A DNA stretch of 64,000 bases from Longimicrobiaceae bacterium (lineage in GTDB: Bacteria > Gemmatimonadota > Gemmatimonadetes > Longimicrobiales > Longimicrobiaceae): contig DASVBS010000060.1 in NCBI GenBank assembly GCA_036375715.1, positions 248,001 to 312,000 of the forward strand, written 5' to 3'. Below the pieces are notes generated by a model. That model worked only from the letters and a program-made list of their open reading frames with translations, was not told the origin of the DNA and ran no database searches. Both the position numbers and the translations under genes were made by a program. Below, one piece after another: positions 14,846 to 20,336 of this stretch. Positions within the stretch are counted from its first letter, which is position 1; every line of letters begins with the position of its first letter.

Positions 14846-14849
<4 letters not shown>

Positions 14850-15289
14850 CTGGCGCAGGCCGCGCAGTAGCCGACCACTTCCAGCCGGTAGCCCTCCACG
14901 CGGAAGCCGTCGGTGGGCTCGATGGAGGGGAGGGTGCCATGCACCGCACTTCCCTGGACGTCCCGTACCATGCCGCAGCGGAGGCAGCGGGCGTGGAAGT
15001 GATCGTCCGTGCGCGGATCATAGCGGGCCGATCCGTCAGCATAGGCCAGCTTGGTGGCCAGGCCGCAGCTCACCAGCGTCTCCAGCGCCTTGTACACGGT
15101 TGCCAACGAGATGTCGGCGATCTCCGCGCGCACCGCGGTGAACACCTCGTCGGCCGTGGGATGCTCCGTGTTGCCGCGAAGAAAGCGATAGATCGCGGCT
15201 CGCTGCTCGGTGAGTCGCTGACCGTTGGCTTCGAGCGCTTCGCGAAGGATGCGTTCGGAAGCCTGATCGTCGACGGAAATGGAAGCCAT
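14846..15289 (-). CDS. Fur-family metal/peroxide-responsive repressor
   Basis: 147 residues in the Fur/PerR/Zur pattern. The winged helix includes RLTEQRAAIYRFLRGNTEHPTADEVF and ISLATVYKALETLVSCGLATKL. The metal-binding half has DDHFHARCLRCGMVRDV and ends CAACAS, giving two Cys-x2-Cys pairs for structural zinc. Which ligand it senses cannot be told. The ATG at 15289 is chosen over the longer frame because AGGG sits 6 bases upstream and homologues start here. It heads an operon with the FAD-linked oxidase and may also control the metal importer nearby (inference). Confidence 0.92.
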
Positions 15290-15507: not shown

Positions 15508-16326
15508 GTGAGATTCCGAAAGCTACCGCTCCTGCTGGGGAGTCTCTCCCTGGCCTGCGATCCGGCGGACAACGTGCGCATCCAGGAGCTTCCGCCGCTC
15601 ACCGAATCCTCGATCGAGGATCGGCTGGGTCTGCCGCTGATGGAAGGCCCGTGGCGCTTCGCGGGCTGGGAGCTGGCGGAGGGAGACTCGCTGGGTCTGG
15701 AGGCCGATCTCCCCGCCCTCGGCGTGCTCGCGCTGGAGACGCAACAGCGCGATTCCCTGGGCGGGTATTACCTCATCGAAGGAGGAGGGAGCGCCCCGTT
15801 GTACGGTGAGGTGCGGCGTGACAGCGTGGTGGCGCTGGTGGCCTTTCTCCAGGAAGGAGACGGCCGTTATCTGGTGGGTGGGGTGCTGGGAGACACCCTC
15901 TGGGTCGAGTCGACGACGCTGGTGGACCCCGAGAGCTGGCGGCCGGGGGCGCGTCCCGCCTTCGTTCGCAGCCGCACACCCATCACCCCCTTCGTGCGCA
16001 TTCGGGGAGCTCTTCCGCCGCCGGCGGTAGACACCGCGGGTCTGGCTGCCACGCAGGACAGCGTCGCTCGGCCGACCGGTGCTGTCAGCGCAGCAACCGG
16101 CGCAGCGGTCCCGACACGGGGCGCCGCGGACGCAGGCCGCCAAACTCAGCCACCCGCGGCGCGGCAAGTCGAACCGGCTCGACCGCCGACTCCCATTCCC
16201 GATTCGGCTCCCCGGGCCGAGCCGGAGCTACCCGCTCGGAGGCCGCAGCCGCCGGCCATCGAACGGCGGGAGCCTCCGCGCCTCCTCGGCGTTCCGATCC
16301 AGCGAGACACCGCTGACGACCAGTGA
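15508..16326 (+). CDS. Putative lipoprotein with proline-rich C-terminus
   Basis: 272 residues starting at a GTG. The N-terminus MRFRKLPLLLGSLSLAC is a lipoprotein signal with cysteine at 17. A compact domain follows (about 40-160: GPWRFAGWELAEGDSLGL, LGGYYLIEGGGSAPLYGEVRRDS, GDGRYLVGGVLGDTLWVEST). Residues about 175-260 are Pro/Ala/Arg-rich and probably disordered. I do not recognise the domain. It should be anchored in the cell envelope. Its TGA stop is back to back with the stop of the opposing permease gene (TGATCA). Confidence 0.65.
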   Translation: MRFRKLPLLLGSLSLACDPADNVRIQELPPLTESSIEDRLGLPLMEGPWRFAGWELAEGDSLGLEADLPALGVLALETQQRDSLGGYYLIEGGGSAPLYGEVRRDSVVALVAFLQEGDGRYLVGGVLGDTLWVESTTLVDPESWRPGARPAFVRSRTPITPFVRIRGALPPPAVDTAGLAATQDSVARPTGAVSAATGAAVPTRGAADAGRQTQPPAARQVEPARPPTPIPDSAPRAEPELPARRPQPPAIERREPPRLLGVPIQRDTADDQ

Positions 16327-17442
16327 TCAGAGCGAGCTGATCGCCCGCCGTGCGGTGTGCCTACCCGCGGAGGTGAGCTCGAGGCGATCGTGGTTCGCCC
16401 GCACCACCACCCCGTGGTCCAGCGCGCGGTCCACGACTCGCTGGGCGAAGCTCTCTTCCCAGCGAAGGTGTTCGTGGAGATGCTGTACGCGGCTCTCCTC
16501 CTGGTGTTCGGGCAGCGACTCATGGTTGAATAGGTGAATTGCCAGCATGGTCTCGGCGAACTCCCACCGCTGCCGCTCCCGCCGGCGACGTACCGCCACC
16601 ATCCCACGTTCGGGCGCAAAGGCGAAAGCGCCCGCGAAGCAGAGCCCGATTGCGACGGCCATGGACCCCGCGATCGAGGCGTCGAGCGTGGAGGAGAGGA
16701 GATAGCCTGCGGCGGCGCCCACTACCCCGACGACCGCACTGAGAGCGATCATCGTGGAAAGCCGATCGGTGAGGAGGTACGCCGTCGCCGGCGGGCCGAT
16801 CATCATCGCGACCACCAGGATCGACCCCACCGCGTCGAAGGCCCCCACTGCCGTAATCGAGACCAGCGACATGAAGAGGTAGTGGACGAGGGCGGGCGAG
16901 AAGCCCAGCGCGGCCGCCAACCCTGCGTCGAAGGTGGTGAGCTTCAGCTCCTTGAAGAAGATGCCCAGAAAAGCCGCATTCAGCGCCAGGATTACCAGCA
17001 TCACCCACAGCACCCGCGGTCCCAGGTCGGCACCCGCGAGCTCGAAGCGCTCGAAGGGTGCAAAGACCAGCTCACCCAGCAGCACCGCGTCCGTATCGAG
17101 GTGAACGTTGCCGGCAAACCGGGCGATGAGGATCACGCCGATGCTGAAGAGCACGGGGAAGACGAGGCCGATCGCGGCGTCCTCCTTCACCAGACGTGTC
17201 TGGTTGAGCAACTCGACCAGGACGACCGTCACCACCCCCGTCGCAGCCGCAGCGAGGATGAGCAGTGGGGAGCCGATGTCACCGACGAAGAGGAAGCCGA
17301 GCACGATCCCGAGCAGGATCGAGTGGCTGATCGCGTCGCTCATCAAGGCCATGCTGCGGAGCACCAGGAAGACCCCTGGTAGCGCGCAGGCCACCGCGAC
17401 GACGATAGCGATCGCGAGGATTTCGAGCTCGGGCTGGATCAT
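16327..17442 (-). CDS. Metal ABC transporter permease with C-terminal winged helix (second permease)
   Basis: ABC-3 family permease of a manganese/zinc/iron importer, 371 residues. Residues about 1-275 hold 8 or so membrane helices with family blocks FLVLRSMALMSDAISHSILLGIVLGF, HLDTDAVLLGELVFAPF and VGAFDAVGSILVVAMMIGPPATAYLLTDR. After the last helix (AFAFAPERGMVAV) come about 90 soluble residues ending WEESFAQRVVDRALDHGVVV and LELTSAGRHTA, which resemble a DtxR/MarR-type winged helix. Its ATG overlaps the first permease stop (ATGA). The permease call is firm; the DNA-binding reading of the tail is inference from pattern. Confidence 0.9.
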   Translation of the reverse strand: MIQPELEILAIAIVVAVACALPGVFLVLRSMALMSDAISHSILLGIVLGFLFVGDIGSPLLILAAAATGVVTVVLVELLNQTRLVKEDAAIGLVFPVLFSIGVILIARFAGNVHLDTDAVLLGELVFAPFERFELAGADLGPRVLWVMLVILALNAAFLGIFFKELKLTTFDAGLAAALGFSPALVHYLFMSLVSITAVGAFDAVGSILVVAMMIGPPATAYLLTDRLSTMIALSAVVGVVGAAAGYLLSSTLDASIAGSMAVAIGLCFAGAFAFAPERGMVAVRRRRERQRWEFAETMLAIHLFNHESLPEHQEESRVQHLHEHLRWEESFAQRVVDRALDHGVVVRANHDRLELTSAGRHTARRAISSL

Positions 17443-18587
17443 CGCTTCTCCTGCGCTTCGTGCTCGTCGGGCGACGCCCCGGCATCGAAACGCCTCCGCG
17501 CCTCCTCCATACCGGACGGGGTGAGGGTCCACTCGCCGGGCCTGGTCTCGCGCGCCCAGCCGCGCTCGCGCAGGGCGGACAGGCTTCGGCGCGCGCTCCC
17601 TTGACCCATGCGCATCGCTTCCAGGGCGCCGATGGAGTGGCCGTGGGAGGTGTCGAGGTGCTGCCCGGCGAGGGAGTAGAGGTCGGCGAGCACCGCATCG
17701 GCGCGCAGCTGCCGACGCTGCTTGTGGGTGCGCACGAGGTTCCAGACGATTCCCCGATTCGGGGCGAAGAGCAGCGATACCAGCACGATCGCGCTCAGGC
17801 ACAGAACGATGGTCGGGCCGGTCGGAAGACGCTGCACGGTGCTGCTCAGAACCGCGCCTGAGAGTCCTGCCACTGCGCCGAAGAACGCCGCGATCGCGAC
17901 CATCCGTTCCATACGGTCCGTCCACTGCCGGGCCGCCGCCCCCGGCGCCACCACCATCGCACTCATCAGCACCACCCCCACCGTCTGCAGGCCGATGACG
18001 ATTGCCAGCACGATGATGGAGGTGAGCAGCACGTCCACCCGCCCCATGTTGATCCCCATGCTCGCTCCGAACGTCCGGTCGAAGGCGAGCAGCTTGATCT
18101 CTTTCCACCCGAGCAGCATCAGCACCACGGCAACGCTGCCGAGGGCGGCGATCACGGTGACGTCCTGCATCAGCATCGTGGCTGCCTGACCGAACAGGAA
18201 CCGATCCAGTCCGGCCTGGCTCGCGTCCGGCAGCGTCTGCACGTACGTGAGCAGGACGAGGCCGAGGCCGAAGAAGACAGAGAGGACGATCCCGAGACCG
18301 CTGTCTTCCTTTACCCGCGTGTTCCTGACGATGGCGATCACCGCGAGCGTGCCGAGCCACCCCGCGACCGCGGCGCCCAGGACGAGCACCAGCGTCGCCT
18401 TACTTCCGGTGAGGAGGAAGGCAAGGACGATCCCCGGGAGAGCGGCGTGGGAGATGGCGTCGCCGAGCAGGCTCTGCTTGCGGAGCACCGCCAGCGAGCC
18501 CAGCGCTCCGCTCGCGGCTCCGAGGATGGCGGAGCCGAGCGCCACCACCCGGAGGGTGTAGTCTCCGAACAGGCCGGCGAGGTCCAT
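17439..18587 (-). CDS. Metal ABC transporter permease with C-terminal winged helix (first permease)
   Basis: ABC-3 family permease, 382 residues. Membrane region about 10-280 with LGSLAVLRKQSLLGDAISHAALPGIVLAFLL, GLDRFLFGQAATMLMQDV and LQTVGVVLMSAMVVAPGAAARQWTDR. A cytoplasmic tail of about 95 residues follows (RTHKQRRQLRADAVLADLY, ALEAMRMGQGSARRSLSALRERGWARE, GEWTLTPSGMEEARRR), a winged-helix-like pattern. Start at 18587 is chosen because the upstream part of the frame is antisense to, or overlaps, the ATPase gene. It pairs with the second permease to form the membrane channel. Confidence 0.9.
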   Translation of the reverse strand: MDLAGLFGDYTLRVVALGSAILGAASGALGSLAVLRKQSLLGDAISHAALPGIVLAFLLTGSKATLVLVLGAAVAGWLGTLAVIAIVRNTRVKEDSGLGIVLSVFFGLGLVLLTYVQTLPDASQAGLDRFLFGQAATMLMQDVTVIAALGSVAVVLMLLGWKEIKLLAFDRTFGASMGINMGRVDVLLTSIIVLAIVIGLQTVGVVLMSAMVVAPGAAARQWTDRMERMVAIAAFFGAVAGLSGAVLSSTVQRLPTGPTIVLCLSAIVLVSLLFAPNRGIVWNLVRTHKQRRQLRADAVLADLYSLAGQHLDTSHGHSIGALEAMRMGQGSARRSLSALRERGWARETRPGEWTLTPSGMEEARRRFDAGASPDEHEAQEKR

Positions 18588-18594
18588 CAGTGGA

Positions 18595-19410
18595 TCAGGC
18601 GAGATGGCGGGCTTCGGCGCGGCGCGAGTCGCCGTCGGCGTGGCCGGCGTGGAGCAGGGGGAGTCCCTCGTCGCCGCCGCGTAGCAGCGGAACGCGGCCG
18701 CCGTAGGTGCGACGCAGGTTGTCCTCCGTGAAGACCTCCTCGACGGGTCCGCAGGCGATGCGGCGGACGTTGAGCAGGAGCACCCATTCGAAGTACTCGG
18801 GGACGGTCTCCAGGTCGTGGTGAACGGCCACGACCGTTCGCCCCTGCGCACGCAGCTCCTTCAGCACGTCCACGATGGCACGCTCGGTCTTGGCGTCCAC
18901 ACCCTGGAAGGGTTCGTCCATGAAATAGACTTCGGCCTCCTGAACCAGTGCCCGGGCGAGGAAGACCCGCTGCTGCTGGCCCCCGGAGAGCTGGCTGATC
19001 TGCCGGTCGGCGAACTCCTGCATCCCGACCTGTTCCAGCGCGGCCATGGCGAGCGTCCGCTCCTTCCGGCCCGGGCGGCGGAACCAGCCCAGCGAGCCGT
19101 AGCGACCCATCATCACCACGTCGAGGACAGTGGTGGGGAAATCCCAGTCCACGGTGCCGCGCTGCGGTACATAGGCCGTCAGGCGACGCTGCTCCGAGTA
19201 CGGCTTACCATGGATGAGAATCTGTCCGGCGGCCGGACGGATCAGCCCCAGAATCGATTTGAGCAGCGTCGATTTACCCGCCCCGTTGGGGCCCACGATC
19301 GCCATCAGGACTCCGGCGGGTACCTCCACGTCCACGTCCCACAGCGCTGGCTGCTCGCGGTAGGCGACGGTCAGGTCGTTGACTTCGATGGCCAGCTTGT
19401 TCGAGCTCAT
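18595..19410 (-). CDS. Metal ABC transporter ATP-binding protein
   Basis: 271-residue ATPase that powers the importer. Walker [11 protein letters not shown]-loop [13 protein letters not shown], signature LSGGQQQR, Walker B VYFMDEP and the switch His in VAVHHD are all present. The extra C-terminal tail after [12 protein letters not shown] carries several His and Asp residues ([13 protein letters not shown]) and might bind metal, though this is speculative. Its ATG overlaps the stop of the binding protein (ATGA), and the first permease begins 7 bases downstream. Confidence 0.95.
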
Positions 19411-20336
19411 GTCGTCTCCTCGGGATCCCTGAGCAGGGCATCCACGATCGTATCGATGTTGTGGCGAACCATGCCGATGTACGTCCCTTCCGGGGTGCCC
19501 GGAGATCCCATCGCGTCCGAGTAGAGCTGCCCCCCGATCCGCACCTCGAATCCCCGCGCCTGCACCGCCGCTCGAACCGCTTCGATCGTCCGCTGCGGAA
19601 TCGAGGATTCCACGAAGATGGCGGGAATTCGGCGTTGCACGATGAGATCCGCCAGCGCCTGCACGTCCGCGGTTCCAGCTTCGCTCGCGGTGCTGATCCC
19701 CTGCAGGCCGCGCACCTCGAAGCCGTAGGCGCGGCCGAAGTAGTTGAAGGCGTCGTGGGCGGTCACCAGCACCCGGCGTTCCGGCGGCACCTCGGCCGCC
19801 CGCCGGAGCACGTAGGCGTGCAGCTCCTCGAGCCGTTCGACGTAGGCGTCGGCGTTGCGCGCGTAGTCTTCCGCGTGCGCCGGGTCGACCGCCGTGAGCC
19901 CGTCGCGAACGGCTTCGGTCGCGTCCATCCAGAATCGCACGTCGAACCAGATGTGCGGGTCGTACGCGCCGGAGAAACCCGGCGGAGCCAGCAGTTGAGT
20001 GGAATCGACCGCCTGTGCGACCGCCACGGTCGGCGTGCGCTCGTCCATGTGGGCAAGCACCTCGGCCATGCGCGCCTCCAGGTGCAGCCCGTTGTAGAAG
20101 ATGATCCGCGAGCGCCAGAGCCGGCGCACATCTCCCTCCCGGGCCTTGTAGAGGTGCGGGTCCACGCCGGGACCCATCAGCGCCACCACCGACACGTGCT
20201 CTCCACCCACGTTCTTCACGATGTCCGCGATCATCCCGGTGGTGGCTACAGCCGGCAGCGCACCGGAGTCGTTCGCCTCGGTCGATGAACACGCGAGCAG
20301 GAGGACCAGGGAGAGAAGACCGGATGCGAGGCGCAT
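19407..20336 (-). CDS. troA: Metal-binding lipoprotein of a TroABCD-like importer
   Basis: Substrate-binding protein (cluster A-I), 309 residues. Lipoprotein signal [16 protein letters not shown] with cysteine 16. Probable metal ligands are H61 (VDPHLYKA), H128 ([11 protein letters not shown]), H194 ([10 protein letters not shown]) and D274 (YSDAMG), the HHHD set of TroA rather than the HHED set of PsaA/MntC. TroA-type proteins bind zinc, manganese or iron, so the metal cannot be fixed. It lacks the His-rich loop of ZnuA proteins. First gene of the operon; no clear ribosome site is visible next to the ATG. Confidence 0.92.

Follow-up and report, generated by a model that had tools for sequence, protein, structure and literature searches.

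Both ABC-3 permeases of a metal importer in the window (the whole 64,000-nucleotide stretch of Longimicrobiaceae DNA analysed here) continue beyond their last membrane helix into a C-terminal tail that is predicted to fold as a winged helix. We give about even chances to a reading in which these tails, as winged helices derived from DtxR, form a cytosolic regulatory or feedback domain on a TroABCD-type pump, with a soluble DtxR as the gene switch.

The importer operon (window 16327–20336, minus strand) encodes a metal-binding protein, an ABC ATPase and two different ABC-3 permeases, denoted PermA and PermB, with 4-base overlaps at two of the three gene junctions (Table 1). The best solved relative of the binding protein is TroA of Treponema pallidum and the operon is therefore classed as TroABCD-type; as far as sequence goes, the importer is of the Mn/Fe type. 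The top NCBIfam matches of the ATPase are Mn/Fe importer ATPases, all below cut-off. PermA and PermB score 229 and 148 bits against PF00950 (family cut-off 20.1), which places both in the ABC-3 family, and they are the only ABC-3 genes found in the genome. The Fur-family gene near the operon has a PerR-like counterpart, 69% identical, near the operon of the relative G187 (L100:9331–9756). A plus-strand reading frame of 272 residues with a lipoprotein-like start (window 15508–16326) lies tail to tail with PermB and ends one base before it.

Table 1. Features of the importer operon and its surroundings (window positions).
Feature	Position	Strand	Evidence
Periplasmic metal-binding protein, ZnuA/TroA type	19407..20336	-	PF01297 E 1.5e-78; TroA 1toa E 5.8e-94
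Importer ABC ATPase; start overlaps end of binding-protein gene by 4 bases	18595..19410	-	PF00005 E 2e-31
Permease A (PermA), ABC-3, 382 aa	17439..18587	-	PF00950 residues 11-274, E 8e-68
PermA tail, predicted winged helix	17439..17753	-	AF2 pLDDT 72.5; alignment; hhalign vs soluble DtxR probability 84
Permease B (PermB), ABC-3, 371 aa; 4-base overlap with PermA	16327..17442	-	PF00950 residues 9-274, E 4e-43
PermB tail, predicted DtxR/MntR-like winged helix	16327..16605	-	AF2 pLDDT 85; 2h09 Z 11.6; Foldseek; profile
Fur-family (PerR-like) regulator gene near operon	14846..15289	-	PF01475 E 2e-25
Weak candidate operator TTTCACCTTATCTAAA	20347..20362	-	8 of 12 positions of TTTAGGnnnnCCTAAA; shuffles 27%

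The original prediction described an extension of about 90 residues after the last membrane helix of each permease and quoted a sequence motif for each; both motifs are found as given, and the extensions are present at about 90–100 residues. The Pfam ABC-3 match stops at residue 274 in both proteins, leaving about 100 residues in PermA and about 95 in PermB. It is also borne out that ABC-3 permeases normally stop after their helices: 16 others of the phylum end 2–15 residues past the corresponding point, and the solved PsaC and ZnuB permease chains (7kyp, 9oko), which share the ABC-3 membrane domain, have 260–290 residues. The membrane part of PermB matches PsaC (7kyp) with E 9e-34, and the profile match ends where the tail starts. 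In one pair of close relatives dN/dS is 0.029 for the PermB tail versus 0.021 for the PermB membrane part, and 0.079 for the PermA tail versus 0.013 for the PermA membrane part; a second pair gives 0.35 for the PermA tail. Because dN/dS is low, both tails are real coding sequence, and the PermB tail is under strong purifying selection.

The AlphaFold model of the PermB tail (92 residues, 4 sequences) has a mean pLDDT of 85 and the order H2–27, H41–47, H51–64, E68–71, E74–77, H79–91. That of the PermA tail, built on 2 sequences, has a pLDDT of 72.5 and shows helix-helix-helix-strand-strand-helix in the same order as in PermB. In both models the basic juxtamembrane stretch and helix 1 of the wing form a single continuous helix. 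With Z differences under 1 counted as ties, VIA-align ranks an E. coli DtxR-like protein first for the PermB tail [2h09, Z 11.6, 2.4 Å over 85 residues], followed by DtxR and IdeR, each at a Z of about 9.7, and not far below by MepR and further MarR proteins; in Foldseek, MntR chains and 2h09 fill the first eleven rows (best E 6.6e-3). We rejected a MarR origin for the PermB tail, since DtxR/MntR proteins come first in both fold searches even with MarR chains near behind. For the PermA tail the fold Z-scores are a tied mix (2obp, 1stz, AF1382 10.4; 2h09 10.2; MarR about 10), and the first Foldseek row is an archaeal IdeR. Structure prediction and comparison with DtxR, MntR and MarR folds thus return winged helices for both tails, with DtxR/MntR proteins at the top for PermB; the suggested DtxR/MarR type is upheld by fold and profile for PermB and more weakly for PermA, where DtxR and MarR tie in fold.

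Profile searches agree with the fold. A profile of 14 PermB tails run against the PDB finds 27 sequences within E 10, of which 26 are DtxR, MntR, IdeR or (in one case) a 'metal-dependent transcriptional regulator' (best E 0.0037); the sole exception is mt-SAF6 (E 0.0061). The corresponding profile of 11 PermA tails reaches DtxR-family chains weakly (E 0.14–0.2, best 0.14). Outside permeases the PermB-tail profile gave two stray matches (E about 1e-3). With hhalign the probability against soluble DtxR is 85 for the PermB tail and 84 for the PermA tail, and 90 for tail against tail, versus 0.2–1.9 for the tails against PerR and Lrp as single-sequence controls; soluble DtxR against Lrp scores 81, so that hhalign reports winged-helix kinship and not a specific family. 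Neither PF01325 nor PF02742 matches the PermA or PermB tail in Pfam even at E 10, and an NCBIfam search of the tails was equally unproductive; the control permeases L017 and L018 do match PF02742. The tails end before the metal-binding and dimerization domain of DtxR (PF02742), so that only the winged-helix part of a DtxR/MntR protein is recognized. The PermB tail is supported as a winged helix whose nearest solved relatives, by profile and predicted fold, are MntR, DtxR and IdeR; the PermA tail is modelled as a winged helix with a weaker affinity to DtxR. Fold, profile and selection agree, and a chance resemblance to winged helices was rejected.

The close family (identity of 58% and above) occurs in 14 of the 200 genomes of the phylum searched, and in one Chloroflexaceae, two Sphaerobacter and one Poribacteria genome. 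Of the two tails, that of PermB is conserved throughout: every readable gene of these 18 genomes has it (15 of 15; the genes of G180, G192 and L063 are cut by a contig end and are uncounted). The PermA tail is conserved only in part, being present in 12 of the 18 and absent in six. A PermA with a 43-residue end (L015) is counted as tail-less, and genome G117, whose locus L016 is cut, is counted through L042. The tail alignments A4 and A5 omit L009, almost a duplicate of L008, and the two permeases with a full DtxR, L017 and L018; the A5 profile also matched a tail-less PermA (L065) through the juxtamembrane stretch shared at the start of the profile. On a tree of the membrane parts the six tail-less PermA are scattered, so that the tail must have been lost, or gained, several times. 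In another family of the same phylum, one permease in each of G003 and G007 ends in a complete DtxR (PF02742 E 2.2e-18 and 6.5e-17), and these two permeases group with PermB (support 94/86).

Homologues of the PermB tail also occur on plasmids (L128–L131), with E 2e-18 for Paracoccus and 2e-12 to 2e-6 for Deinococcus, computed for a nominal search of 100 sequences. Both tails are present on a Paracoccus aestuarii plasmid, as in the window, whereas three Deinococcus plasmid operons have the PermB tail and a PermA that lacks one; a Halomonas sp. plasmid has a PermA tail, with PermB broken in that record. Also on plasmids, both Fusobacterium vincentii permeases lack a tail, and a Deinococcus radiophilus permease stops shortly past its helices. 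A Fur-family gene adjoins one copy of the Paracoccus operon. In viral contigs 71 stretches fit a pattern, with no relative among them. Two Deinococcus plasmids encode a very short two-domain DtxR-like regulator after PermB (L129:5061–5405 and L130:5016–5411, 114 and 131 residues), and one of the two also has a longer DtxR upstream.

It is correct that the operon itself contains no separate DtxR-type regulator, but the genome encodes one soluble DtxR on another contig; judged by eye, the C-terminal extension of this protein is FeoA/SH3-like. All 30 genomes tested encode PF02742 proteins: 14 carry the operon, 14 belong to the order but lack it, and the other two are G003 and G007. A dtxR gene adjoins the operon in three relatives (G147, G187 and the Poribacteria locus) and also in Deinococcus. 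The idea that the tails replace a missing regulator was rejected on these two counts, the ubiquity of PF02742 proteins and the dtxR gene beside the operon in three relatives. Upstream of the binding-protein gene, at least 10 of the 12 positions of a DtxR-like box, TTTAGGnnnnCCTAAA, are matched in 11 of 19 operons, and for each of these 11 shuffled sequences reach the score in at most 0.7%, figures that favour the box somewhat as the consensus was derived from the same upstream sequences. Tandem boxes exactly 22 bp apart, of which one copy may be weaker, occur in eight of the 19 (L103–L107, L109, L111 and L112); in L100 and L064 the box precedes the adjacent dtxR instead (10 and 11 of 12). The window's own candidate is not above chance, with 8 of 12 positions and an equal score in 27% of shuffles, and G032 and G180, of the same family, score 9 of 12. 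The recognition helix of DtxR in these three genomes reads AAAVTA or SAAVTA versus the commoner PASVSG-like sequence, and a drifted operator would fit such an altered helix in three related genomes. Given the soluble DtxR in the genome and the boxes before the operons of relatives, the role of repressor probably does not fall to the tails.

The recognition helix of the tails points the same way. Judged by the DNA contact and metal ligand positions of DtxR and MntR, the ratio of entropy at eight exposed recognition-helix positions to that of the domain is 1.36 and 1.28 in the tails and 0.92 in 15 soluble DtxR proteins (from 14 operon-bearing genomes and L064), where one position is K in 15 of 15. 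DNA binding is thus probably not the role of the tails, and the original prediction that they may bind DNA while membrane-bound finds no support in tails that have no metal-binding and dimerization domain, whose recognition helix is unconserved and whose genomes encode soluble DtxR-type proteins in every case tested. The more particular form of that idea, a heterodimeric pair of wings on DNA, has very little to recommend it: both tails are predicted winged helices and, from the general architecture of ABC transporters, the two permeases should be neighbours within a transporter, but six of the 18 relatives and Deinococcus have a PermB tail only, which tells against an obligate pair, helix 3 positions vary, and boxes persist upstream of operons with a tail-less PermA (L104, L111 and L065).

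The original remark that similar fusions are annotated in some phyla was sound. YtgC-R of Chlamydia trachomatis (CT069) joins a permease to the DtxR-like repressor YtgR, which cleavage sets free from YtgC (review PMC5599777; PMC7755916), and orthologous fusions were reported from 11 phyla (PMC5599777). The window's permeases resemble YtgC-R in that an ABC-3 permease of a ytg/tro ABCD operon is followed by a C-terminal DtxR-type domain. YtgR keeps the metal-coordinating residues of DtxR and represses its own operon after cleavage, whereas the tails of the window lack the metal-binding half; the window also differs in having a separate soluble DtxR and a tail on both permeases. Cleavage of the tails to give metal-dependent repressors, for which the precedent of YtgC-R and a fold related to DtxR can be cited, is improbable here: the metal-binding and dimerization domain is lacking, the recognition helix is unconserved, DtxR-type proteins are encoded separately in every genome tested, and helix 1 runs unbroken from the juxtamembrane segment in the models. 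We regard the tails as a reduced variant of this known kind of permease–DtxR fusion. In the literature searched, with most subscription journals outside its reach, no description of wing-only permease tails was found.

What is conserved in the tails lies elsewhere. In PermB tails H24, H28, E37 and W49 are invariant (14 of 14) and H42 and H46 occur in 13 of 14, while all 11 aligned PermA tails share D24, H32 and H39. A helix-wheel projection would put H24 and H28 on a common face, and likewise H42 and H46. The suggestion that the importer senses metal directly is possible inside the family, where the His, Glu and Asp residues are invariant, but outside it they are not fully kept: the His set is present in none of the three Deinococcus PermB tails and half of it is kept in Paracoccus (H24, H28 and E37), so that metal sensing cannot be the general role. 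In its strongest form, in which a retired repressor wing would have gained a new metal site between helices 1 and 2 (His/Glu in PermB, Asp/His in PermA) and would gate the importer directly and independently of the soluble DtxR, the proposal is doubtful. Winged helices often serve as protein–protein modules, and the tails may instead be structural, stabilizing the ATPase dimer or the heterodimeric permease pair with no sensing at all. A hydrophobic Trp (14 of 14) and Phe (12 of 14) at the turn and start of helix 3 of the PermB tails would suit such a role, as would the patchy presence of the tails, and W49 is kept in all 18 aligned rows including Paracoccus and Deinococcus, unlike the His set. 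We hold this to be rather unlikely, if a little less so than direct gating, since the invariant His/Glu of the 14 PermB tails and Asp/His of the 11 PermA tails exceed the needs of a scaffold and many complexes have one tail only.

A domain that modulates the pump fits the selection on the tails, the lost metal-binding and dimerization half, the relaxed recognition helix and the patchy presence; against this reading counts that the tails are dispensable, the PermA tail being gone in the six relatives and both tails in F. vincentii. By positive-inside reasoning the tails are presumably cytosolic. In the mechanism we propose, soluble DtxR would act as the gene-level switch at the boxes upstream of the operon, and the tails, rigidly continued from the last membrane helix, would feed back on the transporter or gate it. 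In this family they may respond to cytosolic metal, bound in PermB by the His/Glu residues of helices 1 and 2 and in PermA by the Asp/His set. The ancestor was probably a full permease–DtxR fusion of the YtgC-R type that later lost its metal-binding half. Fused regulatory domains cause transinhibition in MetNI and ModC (PMC10710835); like the proposed tails, the MetN C2 and ModC domains are cytosolic, are fused to an ABC importer and feed back on transport, and they differ in that they lie on the ATPase, have other folds and are proven to bind their ligand.

How bacteria stop metal import once the cell is full has been studied mostly at the gene level, and permeases with a repressor-derived domain unfit to work as a standard repressor would offer a direct test of control at the protein level. 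If the proposal is true, an on-board metal sensor would be a built-in feedback domain on permeases of this class of metal importer. Intermediates ranging from a full DtxR tail through two wings and a single wing to no tail would let one follow how a transcription-factor domain becomes part of a transporter. The TroABCD–TroR system of treponemes is like the window in its TroA-type binding protein and two permeases. From Table 1 of PMC2628430, TroD has 366/367 residues and TroC 304/298; judged by length alone TroD has room for a PermB-like tail, whereas TroC is short and TroR lies within the operon.

A different link between DtxR and the membrane may exist in G075, which is without an importer of this family, and in G150. 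A protein of about 370 residues with a full DtxR (PF02742) is encoded just before a FeoB-like gene (L116:1789–2907, plus strand; L117:1574–2737, minus strand), and has, by eye (as for the FeoB assignment), a hydrophobic anchor-like N-terminus and FeoA-like repeats; these proteins are possibly membrane-tethered DtxR regulators beside a ferrous iron transporter.
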